Source: Streptomyces inusitatus | Lineage (GTDB): Bacteria; Actinomycetota; Actinomycetes; Streptomycetales; Streptomycetaceae | Reading direction: 5' to 3' | Length of the DNA: 64,000 nucleotides | Assembly (NCBI RefSeq): GCF_014651115.1 | Contig: NZ_BMWG01000004.1 | Location: forward strand, 248,001 to 312,000 | Shown: positions 55,010 to 64,000 of the stretch, piece after piece | Numbering within the stretch: the first letter of the stretch is position 1 | Layout: each line of letters starts with the position of its first letter | The notes under the pieces: generated by a model | The model's input: the letters and a program-made list of their open reading frames with translations, nothing else | What the model was told of the DNA's origin: nothing | The model's database searches: none | Translations under genes and position numbers: made by a program

Positions 55010-55699
55010 TCACTTCCCGGCGGCGGCCAGCGCCTCCGCCACACCCTTCTCCCGGTCCCCCAGGAACTTCGGATCCGGCTGGAACACCACGTCCAGCGCC
55101 GCCTTGCCCGCCGCGAACATCTCCCGGACACTGCCGTGGATCCAGTGCGAGTCGAGGGGCTCGTCGACCCCGACGCCGTACGAGTCGATCCCCGCCGAGT
55201 CGCAGAGCGCCACGGCCCGCCGGATGTGGAAGCCCTGGGTCACCAGCACCGCCCGGTCGACGCCGAAGATCTTCTTGGCGCGGACACAGGAGTCCCAGGT
55301 GTCGAACCCGGCGTAGTCGCTCACGATCCGCTCGTCGGGCACTCCGCGCTCGGTCAGATAGGTCCGCATCGCGTCGGGCTCGTCGTACTCCTCCCGGCTG
55401 TTGTCCCCGGTGACCAGGACGGCCTTGACCTTCCCGGTGCTGTACAGCTCGGCGGCGGCGTCCAGTCGGTGCGCGAGATAGGGCGTGGGCCTGCCCTGCC
55501 AGAGGCCGGCCCCGAAGACCACGGCCACCTCCTGGGCCGGCACCTCGGCGAGCGGGCGGACCCGGCTGTCGGCGACGGCGTGCATCCAGGTCGCGGGCGA
55601 CAGCGCCAGCACACAGCCGAGCATCGCCGCCCACACCAGCCGCCGCTGACCGCGCCGGGTGCGGGGCATACGCGGTCGGCGCAGCCGGGGGAGCTTCAT
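55010..55699 (-). CDS. SanA/YdcF-like (DUF218) membrane protein
   Basis: A 229-residue protein: basic N-terminal tail, one span (VWAAMLGCVLALSPATWMHAV), then an outer-face DUF218 domain (VVFGAGLWQGRPTPYLAHRLDAA near residues 60-82, LVTGDNSREEYDEP, VTQGFHIRRAVAL). Related SanA proteins affect the envelope barrier and vancomycin sensitivity in enterobacteria. GAAGGA lies 7-8 bases before ATG 55699. The start is 11 bases after the SWIM gene stop, so it is probably the last gene of the MoxR-VWA operon. Confidence 0.87.
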   Translation of the reverse strand: MKLPRLRRPRMPRTRRGQRRLVWAAMLGCVLALSPATWMHAVADSRVRPLAEVPAQEVAVVFGAGLWQGRPTPYLAHRLDAAAELYSTGKVKAVLVTGDNSREEYDEPDAMRTYLTERGVPDERIVSDYAGFDTWDSCVRAKKIFGVDRAVLVTQGFHIRRAVALCDSAGIDSYGVGVDEPLDSHWIHGSVREMFAAGKAALDVVFQPDPKFLGDREKGVAEALAAAGK

Positions 55700-55710
55700 T
55701 CGCAGATCCT

Positions 55711-57549
55711 TCACACCTGATCAGACGGTATTCGAACGGATTCGGTTCGCCTCCCGTCCGGAGCGTCGGTGGACGGGAGCCGGGCCGACCAGGCGGCGGG
55801 CAGCAGCGAGCGGGCCGCGGCCGAGGCGTAGACCGAGGCGGTGAGCCAGGCTTCGGCGAAGGCGTCGGGGTCCGCCGGGAGCAGTCGGCCGAGCGCGTCG
55901 TGGCGGCGGTCGGCGGCGCTCTCCACGAGGGCGCGGGCGCACTCCGCGCCCGTGCTCAGGCCCACCGCGCGGAGCCTGCGCGGGAGTTCGCCGTCCGCCG
56001 AGGCGGCGGTCACGGCCCGCCCGCCCGCGACCGCCCGGTCCACGGCCCGCCGCAGCAGCTCCAGCTCCACCGGCAGCCCGGGCGGGGCCGAGTCCCCCCG
56101 CGGGGCGGCGGTCCGCCCGTCGGCGGGCGGCAGATGCGAACGGTTCAGCCTTCGCAGGCCGAGGTCCGCCCGGACCGGCTCACCCTCGTGTCCCGTCCAG
56201 AGCCCGGCCAGCGCCTGAACCCCGCCCGGCCGGTCCGCCACCGCCCGCGCGATCAGCCGCAGCCCCATGCCCGGCCGGCTCGCGAGCAGCCGCAGATTCT
56301 CGCTGTACGCCAGCTCCGCGCGCTCGTCCGGAGCCAGCAGCCGCAGCACGGGCCCGCCGTCGACCCGGAAGCCGCCTTCGGTGACCGTTCCGGTGAGGAA
56401 GAGCAGATCGCCGCCCACCCGGCGGGTCTCGGCCGGCTCGGCCAGCCAGCCGAGCGCGCGGGAGAGCTGCTCGGCGGGGGGCAGCCGCCAGAGCCCGTCG
56501 AGCGGCGGTTCGTCCCATCGGGCGCCCTCCGCCCGTACCGAACGCGACCGCGCCCCACCGCCGATCCGGCCGTCCGGCGACACCGTGGGACCGGTCAGGA
56601 TCACCGCGCCCCCGGCCCCCCACTCGCGCAGCGGCAGCGCGCAGCCGCCAGGCACCGGAGCGCCCGCCGCCTGGAGCGCGCGTTCGGGGCGGCCGGGGGC
56701 GATGTCGGAGACCGTGTGCAGGACGCCGTCGGGGGTGACGCCGTACGCGGTCGCGCCCGCGTAGCCGGAAGCGGTCACCACCGGCTCGGTGAACAGGCCG
56801 TACAGCCGCAGCGGCCGCGTCGGCCGATAGGCGCGGCGCACCGGGGCGACCGCTTCGGCGGGCCGCCGCAGCAGATCGAGCAGTCCGGCCAGCTCGGCGG
56901 AGAGTTCGGGCAGCCGGAAGGCGGGATCCTCCGACCGGGCCTCGCCGAGGCGCCGCGCGATCCGCACCGCGGCGGCGGCCGGCAGCGGGAGCCCGGCGAG
57001 CCTGCCGGAGTGCGCCGCGTGCAGCAGCTCGGCCCGGTGGACGGCTCCGGCCCCCGACACCCCGGTGACCAGCACGGCGGTCGCGGCGGCCCGGAGGGCG
57101 TCGAGCGCGGCGGACTGGGCGGGGGTGAGCGGAACGACCTCCTCCGCCGGGTCGGGCGCGTCCTCGCCCGTCTCTTCCGCCTCTTCCTCCGCCCCTGTCC
57201 CTGTTTCCGTCTCGGCGGTCTCAGCCGTCTCGGCCGTCTCGGCGGCGCGTTCGGCGAGCGGCGCGGCGGACAGCACCGCCGCGCGGTGCAGACAGGCCGG
57301 GGCCAGCAGACAGCCGCAGACCGCGTCGGCCGCGTCCGCCACGATCCCGCCGGTGGTCCTCAGCGTCACCGAGGTCTCCTCGTCGACCCTGATCCGCACC
57401 CCGTCGGGCAGCGGTTCCACGGGCCATCCGGGCACCTTGGCGAGCGCCGAGTCCACGCGCTTGCGCAGCCGGGCCGGGAGCAGATCCAGCGCCCCGGCCG
57501 CCACCTCGGCGGTGACCGGGGGCAGTTCCTGGGCAGGGTTCACGGTCAC
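55711..57549 (-). CDS. SWIM zinc-finger protein of the MoxR-VWA operon
   Basis: A 612-residue cytoplasmic protein. The SWIM zinc finger is CGCLLAPACLH (Cys78, Cys80, Cys86, His88: CxC-x5-CxH). An acidic Ala/Glu/Thr-repeat linker (about 100-140, encoded by GAG-ACC-GCC-type repeats) follows, then a large domain of unknown function with several beta blocks. It is the YehQ-type partner of MoxR/VWA operons as I recall them. GTG 57549 overlaps the stop of the VWA gene (GTGA), so translation is coupled. SWIM fingers bind DNA or protein; the target here is unknown. Confidence 0.78.
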   Translation of the reverse strand: MTVNPAQELPPVTAEVAAGALDLLPARLRKRVDSALAKVPGWPVEPLPDGVRIRVDEETSVTLRTTGGIVADAADAVCGCLLAPACLHRAAVLSAAPLAERAAETAETAETAETETGTGAEEEAEETGEDAPDPAEEVVPLTPAQSAALDALRAAATAVLVTGVSGAGAVHRAELLHAAHSGRLAGLPLPAAAAVRIARRLGEARSEDPAFRLPELSAELAGLLDLLRRPAEAVAPVRRAYRPTRPLRLYGLFTEPVVTASGYAGATAYGVTPDGVLHTVSDIAPGRPERALQAAGAPVPGGCALPLREWGAGGAVILTGPTVSPDGRIGGGARSRSVRAEGARWDEPPLDGLWRLPPAEQLSRALGWLAEPAETRRVGGDLLFLTGTVTEGGFRVDGGPVLRLLAPDERAELAYSENLRLLASRPGMGLRLIARAVADRPGGVQALAGLWTGHEGEPVRADLGLRRLNRSHLPPADGRTAAPRGDSAPPGLPVELELLRRAVDRAVAGGRAVTAASADGELPRRLRAVGLSTGAECARALVESAADRRHDALGRLLPADPDAFAEAWLTASVYASAAARSLLPAAWSARLPSTDAPDGRRTESVRIPSDQV

Positions 57550-60500
57550 CGGTGCGTACCTCCTACGCGCTCGCCGACCCAGCGGGCCAGCTCCAGGGGG
57601 CTGAGTGCGGCCACCGGCATGCCCGCGGCGACCAGCCGGCCCGCCACGGCGGTGGAGTACCTCGGTCTGCCCGCGTCGTCCAGCGAGGCGCAGCCGAGGA
57701 CGTGGCAGCCCGCGTCGACCAGCGTCCGCACCTCGGCGAGCAGCGGTCCGATCGGGCCGCCCTCCTCGAAGTCGCTGATCAGCACGGTCAGGGTGCGTGA
57801 CGGCACGGTCATCAGCCCGCGCGCGTGCCGCAGCCCCTGAGCGATGTCGGTGCCGCCGCCGACCCGGACCTCCAGCAACAGGCCCAAGGGGTCGTCCACC
57901 TGGTCGGTGAGGTCGATGACCTCCGTGGAGAAGGCCACGAAGTGCGTGCTGAGCGCGGGCACCCCGGCGAGGACGGAGGCGGTCAGCGCGGACCAGATCG
58001 TCGACGCCTCCATGGACCCGGACACATCCACGACGAGCACCAGCCGCCAGTCGGCCGATCTGCGCGCCCGGGTGCGGAACACCGGCCGCTCAGGGAGGAC
58101 GGTCACCGCGCCCGTCCCCGGATCGCGCCGGGCGGTCGTCAGATTCGCCCGCAGGGTGCGCGGGAGATCCAGCGGGCCGCCGGGGCGGCGGGTGGGCCGC
58201 GGGTGGGTCAGCCCGGTGAGCGCGGGGCGCAGCCGGTTGGCGAGCGCCTCGGTCAGCTCCTTCACCAGCCGGGCCACCAGGGGCCGCAGCCGGGCGAGCT
58301 GTTGTTCGGGCAGCCCTCCCGCGTAGGAGAGCACGGTCCGCAGCAGCTCGACGGAGGGGATCGCGGCGGCCGGGTTCAGTTCGAGCGCGGCGTCGAGCCG
58401 CCCGGACCCGGCGGCCGACGCGAGGACTTCCTCGCGCACCCCCGGCCCGAAGAGGGCGGCCAGCTCCTCCGACCAGGCCCGGACGCCCGGGTAGGGGGCC
58501 TCACCGCCGCCGCCCCGGCCGGATCCGTCCTCCCCGCGCGAGCCCTCGCCGCGTCCGCCGCCGTACAGCTCGTCCAGCGCGGTGGCGTAGCGCAGCGCGC
58601 TCCCGCTCAGCTCCCGGCCGCGCCCCAGCAGCAGCCGCCACCGCTCACCGCCGGTGAGCGCGTGCCCCTCCGTGCCGCAGTCCGGGCGCCCACCCGGCTC
58701 CGGGCCGGTCGTGTCCGGGCCGGTCGTCCCGGTACCGGCCGCCTCCGGACGACCGGCCGCCGGGGTCAGCCCGCGGGCGGCCAGGGCTTCGCGGCCCGCC
58801 AGATCCGCCAGTGCCAGGAGAGCCAGCGCCGCCGCGTCCGTGACCGGGCCGGTCAGGGTGGACGCCGCCGTGCCGGTGCGGTCCTCCACGACGGACAGCA
58901 GCCGGGCGCGGGCCGCCGGGGCCAGGATGTCGAACCCCGCTCTGAGCGCGGGCAGCCGGTCCAGGAAAGCCCGGTCGGGGAAGCTCTCCACCCGCTCCAG
59001 CAGCGGATCGAGCGCCCGGCCCGTCTCCAGCAGCGGGCCCGCCGCGAGCAGCGCGCCGCGCAGCGATTCGGCCAGCTCGAAACGGAGGCCGGGGGCGGTG
59101 GCGGCGTCCACCCGGGAGGCCAGCCGGTTCCCGAAGTCGCCCGGGTCCCGCAGCCCCAGCAGCACCTGGGCGGCCCCCGCCGCACCCCGTATCAGCGGTG
59201 TCCCGCCGTCCTCCAGGCGGGCCAGCGCGTCGGCGAGCCGGAGCCCGCCGCTCACCCCGGCGGCCTGCCCGGCGAGCGAGACCAGCGCGCGGGCGTCGGC
59301 CGTCTCGGTGGAGCCCGCGAGGCCGTCGAGCGCCCGCACTCCGGCCGCCGCCAGCTCCTCGTACGCCGCGTCGATCTCCCGCCGCCGCCAGCCCGCTGCC
59401 GTCCCGGGCACATGGCCGGCGCGGAGGCGGTCCAGCAGGGCCATCCCGGCGAGCAGTTCGGACAGGGTGCCCGTCGCCGGGAGCAGCTCGGCCGTCTCGG
59501 TCAGCCGCTCGGCCGCCAGCTCGGGCAGCCCGCACGCGGCGGCCCGGGCCAGCCCGTCGAGAACCTCCGCCGCCGTCGGGCCGCCCCGCCGCCGCTCCTC
59601 CGCGCGCCTTCGGCGCAGCATCCCCTGGGCCGCCTGCTCCAGCGTCACCCCGTGCGGGCCGGCCACATCGAGCATCGCGGCCGTCGACGGCGTCCAGGAC
59701 ACGATCCACCGCGTGGTCAGCGCGGTCGCCTCGCCGACCCCGGCGACCTCCGACTCCTCCCCGTACGGCACTCCGCACACCGCGAGCCGCCGCAGGGCGA
59801 TCTCCCGACGCCGGTCGAGATCGGTACGGAGCGTGTCCAGCCGCAGTTCACGCTGGTCGGGCCGGTCGGGGCCCGGCAGCTTCAACTCCGCGAGCAGCGC
59901 CTCGACCGAGGGGCCGAGCCCCGAGCGCGGCGTCCCCGGGGCCAGCCGCCCCTGGCGCGCGCCGACCAGCACCTGTTCCATCGCCGCCGCGACGATCCGG
60001 CCCCGGCCGAGCAGCCTGCCCTGGGTGAGCACCGTCCCGGCGGCCTCGACCAGCTCGCCGCGCCCGGCGGCCGGCAGCCCGCGCAGGGTCGCCAGATCAC
60101 GGGCGACCCGCACCACCTCCCGCGCGTCGGCGGGCCCGCTGGGGTGGCCCGCCTCCCGCACGGCGGCGCAGATCCGGACCGAGACACCGGTCAGCAGCTC
60201 GTCCAGCAGGCACAGATCGCCCGCCGCGCGGAAGACGCCGTGCTGCCACTCGGGGTCCCGGATCCCCGCCGGATATCCCGAACGCTCGTCCAGCAGCGGG
60301 TACGAGTACGGCACCAGCGATGTCACGACATCCACCGCCGGGCCGTCCTCCGCCCGCTCCGGGGCGGTGTTCCCCGCCGGTCGGTCCATGAGCGCGGGCG
60401 CGTGGAACGAGCCGATGACCGCCGCCGCCCGCCGGTCGCCGTGCTCGGCCAGCCTGCGCCGCATGTTCGCCTCGCGGCGCAGGTCGTACGGGTCCACCTC

Positions 60501-61091
60501 ACCGGCGTCCTCGCGCAGGGCCCAGCCGACCAGCAGCGCCGCCCGGCGCAGCGCCTCCGGAGTGCCGCCGGGGGCGGTCGCCTCGACCAGCCGGTCCCAC
60601 AGATCGTCACCGGGGCGCCCCCCGGCCCGCGCCCGCAGCGCGGCGGTGAGCGCACCGGAGCCGGGGGCGGGCTCGGCGGCCCGCTCCGAGCGGCCGTCCT
60701 CGGGCTTCCGCGCCCCGAGCGGCAGATCGAACGGGATCACCTCCACCCCGGCCTCCCGCGCCCAGCGGATCGCCGCCAGCTCCGGCGAGAACTCGGCGAA
60801 CGGCAGGAACACCAGGCCGCCCCCGCTGCCCGCCAGCGCCACCGGGGGCACCGTCGCCGGATCGCCCAGATGCTCCAGCCAGGGCGCGAACTCCTCCGGC
60901 AGCTCGATGAACAGCACCTCGGGAGCCGCCTCGGCCAGCAGCGCCGGGACGGCCGCCGCCAGCGCGGGCGAGTGGTGCCGCACCCCGATCAGATACGGCT
61001 CCCGGCAGCCGGCCAGCCGCGCCAGCGCCTCTTCGGGCCCCCCGCCCGCGCCGCCCGCGCCGCCCGCGCCGCTCGTCTCAGGCGAGTTCAT
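57546..61091 (-). CDS. DUF5682-VWA fusion protein
   Basis: An 1181-residue cytoplasmic protein. Residues about 20-730 are a DUF5682 (YehM-type) region: GVRHHSPALA at the start, FIELPEEFAPW, VIGSFHAPAL and an all-helical remainder. A Gly/Thr/Pro linker follows. The last 380 residues are a VWA domain with a complete MIDAS: DVSGS, the Thr in GGTDIAQG and the Asp in SDFEEGG. In enterobacteria these parts are, to my knowledge, separate (yehM and yehP). ATG 61091 overlaps the MoxR stop by 14 bases. It probably works as the adaptor of the MoxR ATPase on a client protein. Confidence 0.82.
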   Translation of the reverse strand: MNSPETSGAGGAGGAGGGPEEALARLAGCREPYLIGVRHHSPALAAAVPALLAEAAPEVLFIELPEEFAPWLEHLGDPATVPPVALAGSGGGLVFLPFAEFSPELAAIRWAREAGVEVIPFDLPLGARKPEDGRSERAAEPAPGSGALTAALRARAGGRPGDDLWDRLVEATAPGGTPEALRRAALLVGWALREDAGEVDPYDLRREANMRRRLAEHGDRRAAAVIGSFHAPALMDRPAGNTAPERAEDGPAVDVVTSLVPYSYPLLDERSGYPAGIRDPEWQHGVFRAAGDLCLLDELLTGVSVRICAAVREAGHPSGPADAREVVRVARDLATLRGLPAAGRGELVEAAGTVLTQGRLLGRGRIVAAAMEQVLVGARQGRLAPGTPRSGLGPSVEALLAELKLPGPDRPDQRELRLDTLRTDLDRRREIALRRLAVCGVPYGEESEVAGVGEATALTTRWIVSWTPSTAAMLDVAGPHGVTLEQAAQGMLRRRRAEERRRGGPTAAEVLDGLARAAACGLPELAAERLTETAELLPATGTLSELLAGMALLDRLRAGHVPGTAAGWRRREIDAAYEELAAAGVRALDGLAGSTETADARALVSLAGQAAGVSGGLRLADALARLEDGGTPLIRGAAGAAQVLLGLRDPGDFGNRLASRVDAATAPGLRFELAESLRGALLAAGPLLETGRALDPLLERVESFPDRAFLDRLPALRAGFDILAPAARARLLSVVEDRTGTAASTLTGPVTDAAALALLALADLAGREALAARGLTPAAGRPEAAGTGTTGPDTTGPEPGGRPDCGTEGHALTGGERWRLLLGRGRELSGSALRYATALDELYGGGRGEGSRGEDGSGRGGGGEAPYPGVRAWSEELAALFGPGVREEVLASAAGSGRLDAALELNPAAAIPSVELLRTVLSYAGGLPEQQLARLRPLVARLVKELTEALANRLRPALTGLTHPRPTRRPGGPLDLPRTLRANLTTARRDPGTGAVTVLPERPVFRTRARRSADWRLVLVVDVSGSMEASTIWSALTASVLAGVPALSTHFVAFSTEVIDLTDQVDDPLGLLLEVRVGGGTDIAQGLRHARGLMTVPSRTLTVLISDFEEGGPIGPLLAEVRTLVDAGCHVLGCASLDDAGRPRYSTAVAGRLVAAGMPVAALSPLELARWVGERVGGTHR

Positions 61092-62235
61092 CGCGCAGCT
61101 CCCACAGCGTCCGCCACAGCGGTGCGCCGCTCTCCGCCCGCCGCCGCACCGGTCCGTCCCAGTAGCCCAGCAGCCGGGCGTGGTCCGAGGGGTCGTCCTT
61201 GCGGACCGTGCCCAGCAGATGGCCCGGCAGGGTGCGGACGACATCGCGGCCGTCACCGAGATAGGCCGCGCCGAGCCCCATGGCGGTGGCCACATGAACC
61301 GCCTCCGCCGTGGACATCACCGTCGACGGCCGCTCGATCTCCCAGCCCTCGGCACTGCGCCCGGAGCGCAGATCCCGGAACGCCGTCACCAGCGCCTCCA
61401 GCACCGCGTCGTCCACCGCGAACCCCGCGCCGGACCGCTTGAGCGCGGCCGTCGCCTGCCCCCGCACCAGCGCGGTCTCGGCGTCCAGGTCGGTGATCGG
61501 GCCGACCTCCTCGAAGTTGAAACGCCGCTTGAGCGCGGCGGACATCTCCGAGACGCCCTTGTCGCGCAGGTTCGCCGTGGCGATGAGGGTGAAGCCGGGC
61601 ACCGCGTGCACGGTGCCGTCCGCGCCGTCGCCGCCCGCGAGTTCGGGCACCGACATCCGCCGCTCGGAGAGCAGCGACACCAGGGCGTCCTGCACCTCCG
61701 GCAGACAGCGCGTGACCTCCTCGATCCGGGCGACCGCGCCCCGGGTCATCGCAGTCAGCACCGGCGAGGGCACCAGCGCCTTCCTGCTGGGCCCCTTGGC
61801 CAGCAGCATCGCGTAGTTCCAGCCGTAGCGCAGCTGGTCCTCGGTGGTGCCCGCGGTGCCCTGGACGGTCAGCCCGCTGGTGCCGCACACCGCCGCCGCC
61901 AGCAGCTCCGACAGCATCGACTTGGCCGTGCCCGGCTCACCGACCAGCAGCAGTCCCCGCTCGCCCGCCAGGGTCACCACACACCGCTCGACCAGCGCGC
62001 GGTCGCCGACGAACTTCCGCGACACCACCTGCTGCCGTCCGTCGGCGGCCCGCAGCGGCTCCCCGTCCGAACCGCAGACGAACAGCACCACGGCGCGCGG
62101 CGTCATCCGCCAGCCCGGCGGCCGGGGGCCTCCGTCCCAGCCGGCCAGGAACTCCAGCTCCTGCCGGTGCCGGTCCTCGGGCAGCTCGATCTGCCGCGCC
62201 CCGCCCGCCGTCTCCATCCGGTCCCCCTCGCTCAT
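61078..62235 (-). CDS. MoxR-family AAA ATPase
   Basis: A 385-residue AAA+ ATPase of the MoxR group. Walker A GEPGTAKS at residues 99-106; the Walker B position reads ARIEEVTR near 169-176, with Glu where Asp is usual; sensor-1 block IATANLRDKG; arginine region ALKRRFNFEEV. An N-terminal extension (about 80 residues) precedes the AAA core. MoxR ATPases act with VWA partners to mature or remodel proteins, often inserting cofactors or metals. ATG 62235 overlaps the stop of the MolR-like gene (ATGA). Confidence 0.9.
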   Translation of the reverse strand: MSEGDRMETAGGARQIELPEDRHRQELEFLAGWDGGPRPPGWRMTPRAVVLFVCGSDGEPLRAADGRQQVVSRKFVGDRALVERCVVTLAGERGLLLVGEPGTAKSMLSELLAAAVCGTSGLTVQGTAGTTEDQLRYGWNYAMLLAKGPSRKALVPSPVLTAMTRGAVARIEEVTRCLPEVQDALVSLLSERRMSVPELAGGDGADGTVHAVPGFTLIATANLRDKGVSEMSAALKRRFNFEEVGPITDLDAETALVRGQATAALKRSGAGFAVDDAVLEALVTAFRDLRSGRSAEGWEIERPSTVMSTAEAVHVATAMGLGAAYLGDGRDVVRTLPGHLLGTVRKDDPSDHARLLGYWDGPVRRRAESGAPLWRTLWELRDELA

Positions 62236-64000
62236 CGCGAACCACCCTTGCCCCTCCTGGCGTTACGCCCCTTGAACACTTCGAACCCCGGTGCGTCGCC
62301 GTCCAGCACCCGCTGCCAGGCCACCGCGAACAGCTCCGCCACCGGCCGGTCGGGCACCGCGAAAGCGTGCTCCGCGCCGGGGAGCAGATCCGACTTCCAG
62401 CTCTCCAGGGGCAGCCTCGGAGTCCTCGCCTCCAGCCAGCCGCCGGGCAGGAAGAGCGAACGCCCGGCCCGGGCCCGCTTCGCCTCCACCACCAGCTCGG
62501 TCCCCGCCAGCTCCGCCCGGGCCTTCTTCAGCCTGGCGGGCTTCCACCCCGTCCACTCCGCCTGATTCCGGTCGGTGGGATCGGGCAGCGCCAGAAGCAT
62601 CAGATAGAGGGCCGCCGCGTCCTCGGAGAGCCCGAACCGGCCGGCTGCCGCCGTCACCAGCTCCGGCGCGCTGTGCGCCGGATGCTGGGCGGCCCCCGCC
62701 GGACCGTCGGCGGCGAGCAGCTCCGCGAACTCGGTGCCGAGCACCGCGCGCAGCGCCGCCAGCTCGTCCGAGTCGCCCGAGATCGCCAGCAGCAGCTTCA
62801 GCGTCGGATGGTCGGGTCCCGCGTGCTCCCCGGTCGCCACCGAGGCGGCCCGCACCCACACCGACTCCAGCTCCGTGTAGTAGCGCGTCGGGGCGAGCAC
62901 CAGCGTGTCGCCGACCTCGACCAGGCCGTGCTTGCGGCCCCCGGTGTTCGGACCGAGGCCGTGCGCCTCGCGTATCCGCTTCGAGGTCGACTTGCCGTCG
63001 GCGTCCCAGTCGCAGCCGAGGTCGAGCAGCAGCCGCGGATCGGTGAGCCGCTCCCGCAGCATCCGCAGGGTCGTCGGCAGCACCGCCCGCAGCGGGTCCC
63101 CGAAGGGCAGCCGGTAGGCCAGCCACCGCAGCGCGGTCACCGAGGAGGCCAGCGTCCGCCCGGTGAGCAGCGCGTCCTTGTCGACCGGCGTCAGGTCGCC
63201 GTCCTCGTCGGGCCGCTGCTCGGTGCCGCGGGTCAGCTCCCGCCGTGTCTCGGGGTTGAGCGCGGCGTCCAGGCCCGGGTCCGAGGCGAACTCCGCCATC
63301 AGCCGGGCGGTCAGCCAGGGCGGTGTGGCCCGCCGCCGCCCGCGCTCGGCGAGCCAGGCCTCGATGAGCGGCTCCAGATGGAAGCCCCGCGTCCACAGCT
63401 CGTCCACCCGGTCCGGCTCCGCCGGCAGCAGCAGACCGGTGTACCGGCGGCGTTCGGCGGGGGCGAAGTCGCCCAGGGTCTCGCGGGCCGACTTGGCGTC
63501 CGCGCTCTTGAGCCCCAGCGGTGCGAGGTACTCCGCCGTCAGCAGTCCGTCGCGGCCGTACTCATTGATGCCCGGCAGCCCGAGCTGCACCAGCGCGGCC
63601 GTCGCCGCGCCCACGCCGACCCGCTCGGCGAACTCCTGTGCCTGCTCCGGGCGGTACGGCAGCGGACCGTGCTCCCGCACCCCGTCGATCAGACGGCGCA
63701 GCGACTCCGCGTACGAGGGGTCCCCTGCGGAGCCCAGCACCCGGGAGTCGATCTCGGTGAGACCGTCCCAGCCGCCGAAGGCCCCGGCGGGGTCGTACTC
63801 CACACAGTTCCAGGTGGCGCGCGGGTGATCGGTCCGCTCCACGCACATGAACATCAGCACCCTGGCCCCCGAGCGGCGGACCGTGCCGACCGGATCGGCG
63901 GGGTTCTGGTCGAACCTGCCCTTCAGCTGTACGGTCCGCAGCCGCCCGCGCGAGTCCAGCAGGACCGCTTCGCCGTCGACCCTCGTCTCCAGCGCCGCGT
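62232..64000 (-). CDS. MolR/YehI-like large protein of the MoxR-VWA operon (cut by window end)
   Basis: The frame is open to the window edge, so at least 589 residues are the C-terminal part of a larger protein. It is soluble, helical, rich in Leu/Arg/Glu, with Trp-containing blocks (ATWNCVEYD, LDLGCDWDADGKS) and ends FEVFKGRNARRGKGGSR. Its place before MoxR, VWA and SWIM genes is where enterobacterial yehI (molR, DUF4132/WGR family) sits, and its size fits; I cannot see a decisive DUF4132 motif. Role in the system unknown, possibly client or scaffold. Confidence 0.6.
   Translation of the reverse strand, partial: AALETRVDGEAVLLDSRGRLRTVQLKGRFDQNPADPVGTVRRSGARVLMFMCVERTDHPRATWNCVEYDPAGAFGGWDGLTEIDSRVLGSAGDPSYAESLRRLIDGVREHGPLPYRPEQAQEFAERVGVGAATAALVQLGLPGINEYGRDGLLTAEYLAPLGLKSADAKSARETLGDFAPAERRRYTGLLLPAEPDRVDELWTRGFHLEPLIEAWLAERGRRRATPPWLTARLMAEFASDPGLDAALNPETRRELTRGTEQRPDEDGDLTPVDKDALLTGRTLASSVTALRWLAYRLPFGDPLRAVLPTTLRMLRERLTDPRLLLDLGCDWDADGKSTSKRIREAHGLGPNTGGRKHGLVEVGDTLVLAPTRYYTELESVWVRAASVATGEHAGPDHPTLKLLLAISGDSDELAALRAVLGTEFAELLAADGPAGAAQHPAHSAPELVTAAAGRFGLSEDAAALYLMLLALPDPTDRNQAEWTGWKPARLKKARAELAGTELVVEAKRARAGRSLFLPGGWLEARTPRLPLESWKSDLLPGAEHAFAVPDRPVAELFAVAWQRVLDGDAPGFEVFKGRNARRGKGGSR

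Follow-up and report, generated by a model that had tools for sequence, protein, structure and literature searches.

Organization of the operon

The window considered here, a stretch of 64,000 nucleotides from Streptomyces inusitatus situated on contig C4 of the 7.87-Mb host genome, ends with a minus-strand operon related to the yeh cluster of Escherichia coli, in which the equivalents of YehM and YehP form a single DUF5682-VWA polypeptide. Four genes, encoding the end of a very long protein, a MoxR-type AAA+ ATPase, the DUF5682-VWA fusion and a protein with a SWIM motif, overlap serially by 4, 14 and 4 bases according to the coordinates of their open reading frames (ORFs) (Table 1). The long gene runs past the window end at 64000 and is completed to 1697 residues at L004:6326, with a small DUF4132 gene upstream of it. 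The operon is genuine, and both its gene set and the fusion are established. An earlier reading of the letters, hereafter the sequence-only reading, had described a five-gene operon with overlaps of 4-14 bases among four of the genes. The overlaps and the long, MoxR, fusion and SWIM genes were borne out, but the SanA-like gene counted as the fifth member is judged to be a neighbour outside the system, and the DUF4132 gene is found beyond the window.

Both halves of the fusion, which the sequence-only reading had also announced, were recovered by Pfam profile search on one protein of 1181 residues, far above the cut-offs (DUF5682, E 1.4e-187; VWA_CoxE, E 7.6e-64). On a copy one residue shorter, to whose numbering 1 must be added, DUF5682 spans residues 47-920 and VWA_CoxE residues 949-1171. 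When six locus proteins were compared by BLAST with six E. coli proteins and eight proteins of the host genome, the fusion aligned with YehM (30% over 504 aa) and, from about residue 816, with YehP (38% over 374 aa), and the window MoxR was 45% identical to YehL over 380 aa. The proposed match to yehI-yehL-yehM-yehP-yehQ thus holds for YehL, YehM and YehP, but not for YehI as far as the window gene is concerned. The DxSxS part of the metal-ion-dependent adhesion site (MIDAS) is present in all 33 loci of the fused kind, including L067, which carries DVSAS and is fused; its T and D are found in 32 of the 33, the exception being a frame break in L064. Frame breaks occur near the end of the VWA part in both L064 and L068. 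A pattern scan missed many MIDAS and GxxH variants, and residue counts were taken from alignments instead. In Streptomyces atratus, the only RefSeq name carried by the fused protein is 'DUF5682 family protein'.

The MoxR protein keeps the motifs GEPGTAKS, RxEE[IV]T, ATAN and ALKRRF in 33 of 33 fused-kind loci. Its Walker B motif, RxEE, is common to the window MoxR, a paralogue of the DUF5691 type (see below) and E. coli YehL, and might represent a subfamily signature. The CxCx5CxH motif of the SWIM-motif protein is kept in all 32 loci that have the gene; the window protein scores 11.6 bits with the Pfam SWIM profile, against a cut-off of 19.6 bits, and had no YehQ match in the BLAST comparison with the six E. 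coli proteins.

Table 1. Features of the operon and its surroundings, in window coordinates unless a locus is named.
Feature	Position	Strand	Basis
C-terminal third of the 1697-aa protein, no known family (earlier label 'MolR-like')	62232-64000	minus	no Pfam match in window copy
MoxR AAA+ ATPase, YehL-like, 385 aa	61078-62235	minus	Pfam AAA_5, E 1.6e-38; YehL match
DUF5682-VWA fusion (YehM + YehP equivalents), 1181 aa, ATG start	57546-61091	minus	Pfam, BLAST, tree
Predicted TIKI/Ere/ChaN-like domain, residues 23-284	60240-61025	minus	AlphaFold models, fold matches, invariant residues
Helical domain resembling the AAA+ C-terminal lid, residues 287-377	59961-60233	minus	fold match to BchI
Gly/Pro/Thr-rich linker near the fusion junction, residues ~775-815 (approximate boundaries)	58647-58769	minus	sequence; YehP alignment begins at ~816
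VWA_CoxE domain with MIDAS DxSxS...T...D, residues 950-1172	57576-58244	minus	Pfam, E 7.6e-64
SWIM-motif protein (YehQ position), 612 aa, CxCx5CxH	55711-57549	minus	motif; below Pfam cut-off
SanA-like DUF218 gene, neighbour judged outside the system	55010-55714	minus	DUF218, E 4.1e-28
DUF4132 (YehI-like) gene outside the window, 4-base overlap with the long gene	L004:6323-7366		Pfam, profile comparison

Predicted fold of the DUF5682 N-terminal domain

Structural models suggest that the first ~260 residues of the fusion likely adopt the hydrolase fold of the TIKI, erythromycin esterase (Ere) and ChaN proteins. An AlphaFold model of residues 23-501 reached a mean predicted local distance difference test score (pLDDT) of 90.8, and a model of the N-domain alone 86.8; alignment rows were picked by hand (47 of 52 for the N-domain model, 36 of 52 for the lid). 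In a fold search with the N-domain model, for which 705 chains were re-aligned, ranks 1-3 were taken by Tetrahymena cytochrome oxidase entries (Z 9.6-9.9). Ranks 4-16 included ChaN (Z 8.6), HopBA1 (8.0), PMT (6.3-6.5), RRSP or same-numbered toxin entries (6.1-6.5), EreC (6.2) and Ere-like 'succinoglycan biosynthesis' proteins (5.5-5.8), and the next rows began at Z 5.2 with a histidine-family phosphatase. RRSP, PMT, HopBA1, BcR135 and ChaN have been classed together as a TIKI superfamily (PMC6254334). The Tetrahymena cytochrome oxidase subunit that matches best is possibly TIKI-like itself.

Sequence comparisons point, if weakly, in the same direction. Below the Pfam cut-off, ChaN and TraB were the sole families besides DUF5682 to appear in more than two members, in overlapping sets: each in 7 of 61 sequences (best E 0.03), and in 5 and 6 of 47, respectively (best E 0.007 and 0.008). 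Because homologues of ChaN and TraB are almost absent from a set of 80 genomes of the phylum (0 and 1, respectively), Ere alone was used in a profile test. The Ere profile comprised 11 of 18 loci, L138-L142 having been left out and L136 and L137 dropped as the motif was not found in them. Its alignment with DUF5682 placed GVRH opposite GEASH and matched E63 to the Glu of Ere, and none of 200 block shuffles scored as high. The TIKI signature has the form GxxH ... E ... GxxH, and the window copy contains such a series in G36/H39, E63 and G227/H230, of which H39, E63, G227 and H230 are found in 61 of 61 DUF5682 sequences.

That 61-sequence alignment covers five phyla at 24% mean identity (residue number = alignment position + 22). 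Its invariant positions include H39, E63, S102, E104, D122, W165, E170, R193, R206, E207, G227, H230, G276 and R312, among others; ten of them are charged or His (H39, E63, E104, D122, E170, R193, R206, E207, H230 and R312). Judging from this conservation, H39, E63, E104, D122, R206, E207 and H230 are candidate active-site residues. In a larger set, the presence of [CR]HH.P in 104 of 104 rows is the product of selection, four rows without it having been dropped: L010, with a frame that begins only past the motif, two fragments of L077, where the frame is broken, and the Fusobacterium locus L121, which reads GVRHFSP and was restored in the 61-sequence alignment.

A fold search with the larger model likewise returned TIKI/Ere/ChaN structures for its first part. 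Behind this domain, residues 287-377 matched the lid of BchI (1g8p) in that search (Z 9.4, 72 residues, 28% identity), and three of 36 relatives gave a Pfam AAA_lid_2 hit (best E 0.0047). The protein seems to contain an AAA+-lid-like domain inside DUF5682 that is devoid of an ATPase core.

Several observations weigh against this assignment. Most of the Z scores lie below 8, where a common arrangement may mean little, and the top match (Z 9.9) is the Tetrahymena subunit, which is only possibly TIKI-like. Foldseek never reached E <0.001 (best 6.1e-3 with the N-domain alone, 0.04 in the other search), the hhalign probability to Ere was 2-3% (P 0.02), and the ChaN and TraB Pfam matches are below cut-off elsewhere and missing for the window copy. 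RRSP needs a set of two His and two Glu (PMC6254334), and the first Glu of this Ere/RRSP set is absent here, the corresponding stretch being G36-V37-R38-H39. Within it, G36 is found in 56 and R38 in 59 of the 61 sequences, whose rows were mostly chosen by the HH motif. As for the lid, AAA_lid_2 is below cut-off and absent in the window copy, and the unrelated EccE recurs more often (5 of 36); hhalign to the MoxR lid gave a probability of 1.5-1.9%, with 7 of 200 shuffles scoring as high. Searches of PDB sequences yielded one unrelated chain for DUF5682 (E 1.1) and six unrelated chains for the lid-like segment (best E 0.3).

The sequence-only reading had regarded DUF5682 and VWA as one adaptor for the ATPase. 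Since they are fused in one polypeptide, the two parts are expected to act together, in agreement with that proposal; with a hydrolase-like predicted fold and enzyme-like invariant residues, though, DUF5682 appears to be more than an adaptor.

Distribution of the fused locus

Among 39 related loci that were compared, 33 are of the fused kind, the window locus included. The fusion is present in all 32 others, which form one clade and come from actinobacterial genera; they have the long gene and MoxR in 32 cases each, and DUF4132 and SWIM in 31 each, the single gaps falling at contig ends (L064 and L107). The neighbourhood survey suggested by the sequence-only reading therefore finds the same neighbouring genes in relatives, and the condition that would have refuted that reading did not arise. 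In a tree of 104 DUF5682 domains (quick method, midpoint root, long branches), the 33 fused rows make up one branch, with a value of 100% in the Shimodaira-Hasegawa-like approximate likelihood ratio test (SH-aLRT). The window copy pairs with a copy from another family (94%) in this tree, outside of which closer Streptomyces copies exist; exchange of the fusion between families is only a possibility.

A second set consisted of the best 80 of 519 named loci, ranked by match to the fused protein and hence biased towards the fusion; as it was found through DUF5682 patterns, it is uninformative on the absence of the fusion elsewhere. In these 80, 79 loci pass the fusion test, L158 starting at a contig edge, and DUF4132 was detected in 77 and the long gene, MoxR and SWIM in 78 each, with misses confined to L158, L185, L206 and L225. 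Their titles name Streptomyces, Kitasatospora, Saccharothrix, Micromonospora, Dactylosporangium, Catellatospora, Actinokineospora, Actinophytocola, Umezawaea, Nonomuraea, Kineosporia, Wenjunlia and one actinomycete metagenome-assembled genome, the closest among these 80 being copies of Streptomyces (71-78% identical to the window copy). No sixth gene recurs in more than 13 of the 80 neighbourhoods, as judged from the larger ORFs in ~2 kb upstream and at most 7 kb downstream.

Within the genus, the fused set was found in 21 of 61 genomes, sorted by score and then by gene content. In 21 of 21 genomes in which the DUF4132-long gene-MoxR set, found through the long gene, was followed, the fusion comes directly after it; the contig of genome G028 ends after DUF4132, the long gene and a 90%-identical MoxR. 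DUF5682 loci of the genus are of four kinds, namely the DUF5691 type, the fused kind, an unfused yeh type and a distant kind, and the host genome has three of them. Its two further MoxR-DUF5682-VWA loci are L005:5546-13242 (contig C2), with DUF5691, and L006:4300-11693 (contig C39), of the distant kind; convergent to the latter, L006:332-4297 encodes a 1321-aa protein whose C-terminal end looks toxin-like by eye. In a DUF5691-type locus of one genus genome, L077:8616-13127, DUF5682 and VWA share one frame and a DUF5682 piece is in another frame, which represents either a second fusion or a frame error.

Eight loci come from a plasmid collection. One, from Streptomyces, is fused, and those of Methylosinus, Deinococcus, Rhizobium, Hymenobacter, Allorhizobium, Fusobacterium and one Nonomuraea have separate genes. 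The Methylosinus copy (L117:4435-18220) sits among insertion sequence elements, a recombinase and an Imm26 gene, surroundings that suggest mobility. A search at class level contributed 12 loci taken from many matches, those with middling scores being left aside.

The long protein and the DUF4132 gene

The label 'MolR-like' given to the long gene by the sequence-only reading was not borne out. As a candidate MolR/YehI protein, the long gene product reached E 0.1 with YehI in hhalign, close to the 0.15 and 0.2 of two controls, and had no BLAST match. The YehI-like gene is instead the one upstream, outside the window: it matches Pfam DUF4132 (E 2.2e-26) and, in a profile comparison, the DUF4132 end of YehI (E 6e-9, 250 columns). 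What is found is the DUF4132 end only, as a separate gene, rather than a full-length YehI-type protein. By BLAST, neither the DUF4132 protein nor the long protein has a counterpart among the six E. coli proteins.

Between the DUF4132 and MoxR genes of the fused loci lies a protein of about 1700 residues (62232-64000 in the window, and L004:1233-6326). Pfam left the window copy without a match and gave only isolated weak hits in relatives, and a PDB sequence search yielded none. A query consisting of part of it matched 27 of the 61 genus genomes, which are the 21 with the fusion, G028 and five others. When 11 weaker or extra copies were opened, one proved to be the cut locus of G028 and one, from G050, to lie on a 6.5-kb contig; around the other nine (~29-35% identical), matches to MoxR, the fusion and SWIM were absent within 18.5 kb. 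A DUF4132 match is present in two of these nine, in one case in the adjacent gene (L234:7114-13294) and in the other within the same 1622-aa ORF as the long-protein matches (L235:6354-11222). DUF4132 and the long protein thus seem to make up a separate module, found also at loci that lack the MoxR part, and because L235 has both matches in one ORF, the long protein may be tied to DUF4132.

The SanA-like neighbour

Measured from a GTG start, the SanA-like gene overlaps the SWIM gene by 4 bases; the 11-base gap reported by the sequence-only reading applies to an ATG start. The protein scored 110.7 bits, against 363, with the SanA equivalog of NCBI. Orthologues are strong in 38 of 41 genus genomes (the host's own included), weak in one and missing from two, and those of 37 of the 40 other genomes are 58-79% identical. 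In six of six chosen relatives, SanA lies 0.4-2.6 kb from the gene equivalent to 68490-69074 (extended numbering), with no operon between and with reductase-like and dnaG-like genes (named by eye) alongside. The same interval measures ~12.8 kb in the window genome and contains the operon.

SanA was found near the operon in none of the 32 related loci and in 3 of the best 80 of 519 named loci, twice adjacent and once ~1.9 kb off, all three being among the seven closest relatives; of the other four, two are without SanA nearby and two are cut. SanA was consequently rejected as a functional partner: it is widespread without the operon, keeps its flanks in 6 of 6 relatives and is rarely near the operon, and the envelope or antibiotic-barrier role that its presence had hinted at is not supported. 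The position of the operon differs between genomes, and either it arrived here beside a resident SanA gene or it was lost elsewhere.

Proposed mechanism and alternatives

The reading that we favour, to which we give slightly less than an even chance, is that the five genes constitute one MoxR/VWA machine equipped with a predicted hydrolase of its own, which at this locus is joined to the VWA domain. The DUF4132 protein, the 1697-aa protein, MoxR, the DUF5682-VWA fusion and the SWIM protein would then form a single assembly. In NorQD, a finger of the VWA domain enters the MoxR pore and the MIDAS grips the client (PMC9976466). By analogy, the MoxR ring would engage the VWA domain, whose chain carries the putative TIKI/Ere/ChaN-fold enzyme, and the AAA-lid-like domain could dock on the ring. 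ATP hydrolysis might switch or mature the hydrolase, or bring it to substrates held by the VWA metal site; the fused enzyme would accordingly serve as a client whose state is switched, or else as a tool that acts on a substrate gripped by the machine. Choosing or holding that substrate may fall to the DUF4132/1697-aa pair together with the SWIM protein. In this scheme, catalysis, the docking of the lid, what the remaining proteins do and the sequence of events are all inferred.

A further-reaching and more doubtful proposal, which we put forward tentatively, is that DUF5682/YehM represents an unrecognised TIKI branch with an orphan AAA+ lid, its activity being controlled by a MoxR ring by way of a VWA domain. 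It would define a class of ATP-controlled hydrolases that almost all E. coli possess and that spans several phyla, and that is covalently coupled in Actinomycetota.

DUF5682 might alternatively be a catalytically dead scaffold that makes up, with VWA, one adaptor bringing an outside client to the MoxR ring. Its fusion to VWA, the lid-like domain and the missing first Glu of Ere and RRSP would all suit this role, and TIKI members can be without the motif, as is PMT (PMC6254334). Invariance of ten charged or His residues, H39, E63 and H230 included, across 61 sequences that average 24% identity would nevertheless be unusual for a scaffold, and we deem this explanation unlikely. We attach the same low probability to a maturation chaperone of the NorQD/CbbQO kind, which would insert metal into, or remodel, an enzyme encoded elsewhere. 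No client gene recurs beside the operon in the limited flanks surveyed, and the fused form has a scattered distribution, being seen in 21 of 61 genus genomes, and varies in position between genomes, two features that fit poorly with such a chaperone. The idea draws on characterised MoxR/VWA pairs that are described as chaperones, and on the near-universal presence of yehL-yehQ in E. coli. It also draws on molR, which we take to be located beside yehI, a gene that the lepA paper leaves unnamed. In that report, the closest to a functional account that was found, molR at 47.3 min is listed as a molybdenum-use regulator, and an allele of it makes cells that have lost lepA grow more slowly (PMC4245954), which leaves room for a role in metal maturation.

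Least probable, in our estimation, is a conflict (defence-like) system with a logic akin to the MoxR-vWA ternary systems and with DUF5682 as the effector. It would account for a MoxR-VWA pair in which the VWA part carries an enzyme-like domain, and for the patchy distribution, and MoxR bears a weak likeness to bpMoxR (22 bits, below the cut-off of 27). This was the only sign of the four third components of such systems (VMAP, iSTAND, FtsH, beta-propeller), VMAP and others not being searched by name. Ternary systems swap effectors, according to the account in PMC7159879, whose main text does not mention YehL, SWIM or DUF4132; at the present locus, by contrast, no effector swapping was seen, as the fusion follows MoxR in 21 of 21 genus genomes that were located by way of the long gene and followed past MoxR. 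The sole PADLOC match was weak and fell on MoxR (REase_II, E 0.009).

The fusion makes a widespread orphan system, yeh, testable, and its actinobacterial form offers a single polypeptide for structural work. Should DUF5682 prove to be a TIKI-type hydrolase, specific candidate catalytic residues of the yeh cluster would be available for mutation in E. coli K-12, and a new type of partner would be added to those of MoxR/VWA motors.

Comparison with known systems

No functional study of DUF5682 or of the yeh cluster was found in the searched literature, which mostly excluded subscription papers and in which DUF5682 is absent and yeh names are rarely mentioned, in line with the remark of the sequence-only reading that no function is established for the set. 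MoxR proteins have been divided into seven subfamilies, of which YehL is one, and E. coli K-12 encodes two such proteins, YehL among them (PMC3893208). The E. coli cluster is ordered yehI-yehK-yehL-yehM-yehP-yehQ, with yehM and yehP separate, and yehL-yehQ are matched in 5301 of 5426 E. coli genomes, 5162 of which cover at least 80%. The locus described here shares the order MoxR, DUF5682, VWA and the upstream DUF4132 gene with that cluster, and has its SWIM-motif protein at the YehQ position. It differs in the fusion of the YehM and YehP parts, and in that its DUF4132 gene is small, stands by itself and precedes a 1697-aa protein in which no similarity to YehI could be detected.

Other yeh-type loci of Actinomycetota (L088-L092, L113-L115 and L123), some of them in the same genus, likewise have MoxR, DUF5682 and VWA, but with DUF5682 and VWA in separate frames; eight of these nine encode a YehI-like protein (none in L091). 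The DUF5691-type set, present on contig C2 of the host and in Rhizobium, Deinococcus and Methylosinus, retains the MoxR-DUF5682-VWA core, whereas DUF5691 replaces DUF4132 and the 1697-aa protein, and DUF5682 and VWA are separate.

With the TIKI, erythromycin esterase and ChaN proteins, the N-terminal domain probably has in common the fold predicted for it and, in the window copy, it has the GxxH-E-GxxH series; it departs from them in the absent first Ere/RRSP Glu and in the attached lid-like and VWA domains. The fusion resembles NorD in placing a MIDAS-bearing VWA domain at the C-terminus, after another N-terminal domain, and in having a MoxR ring as partner, as NorD has in NorQ, but NorQD serves cNOR. 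Altogether, the set is best described as a variant among yeh-type MoxR/VWA clusters, one whose core is formed by a predicted hydrolase.

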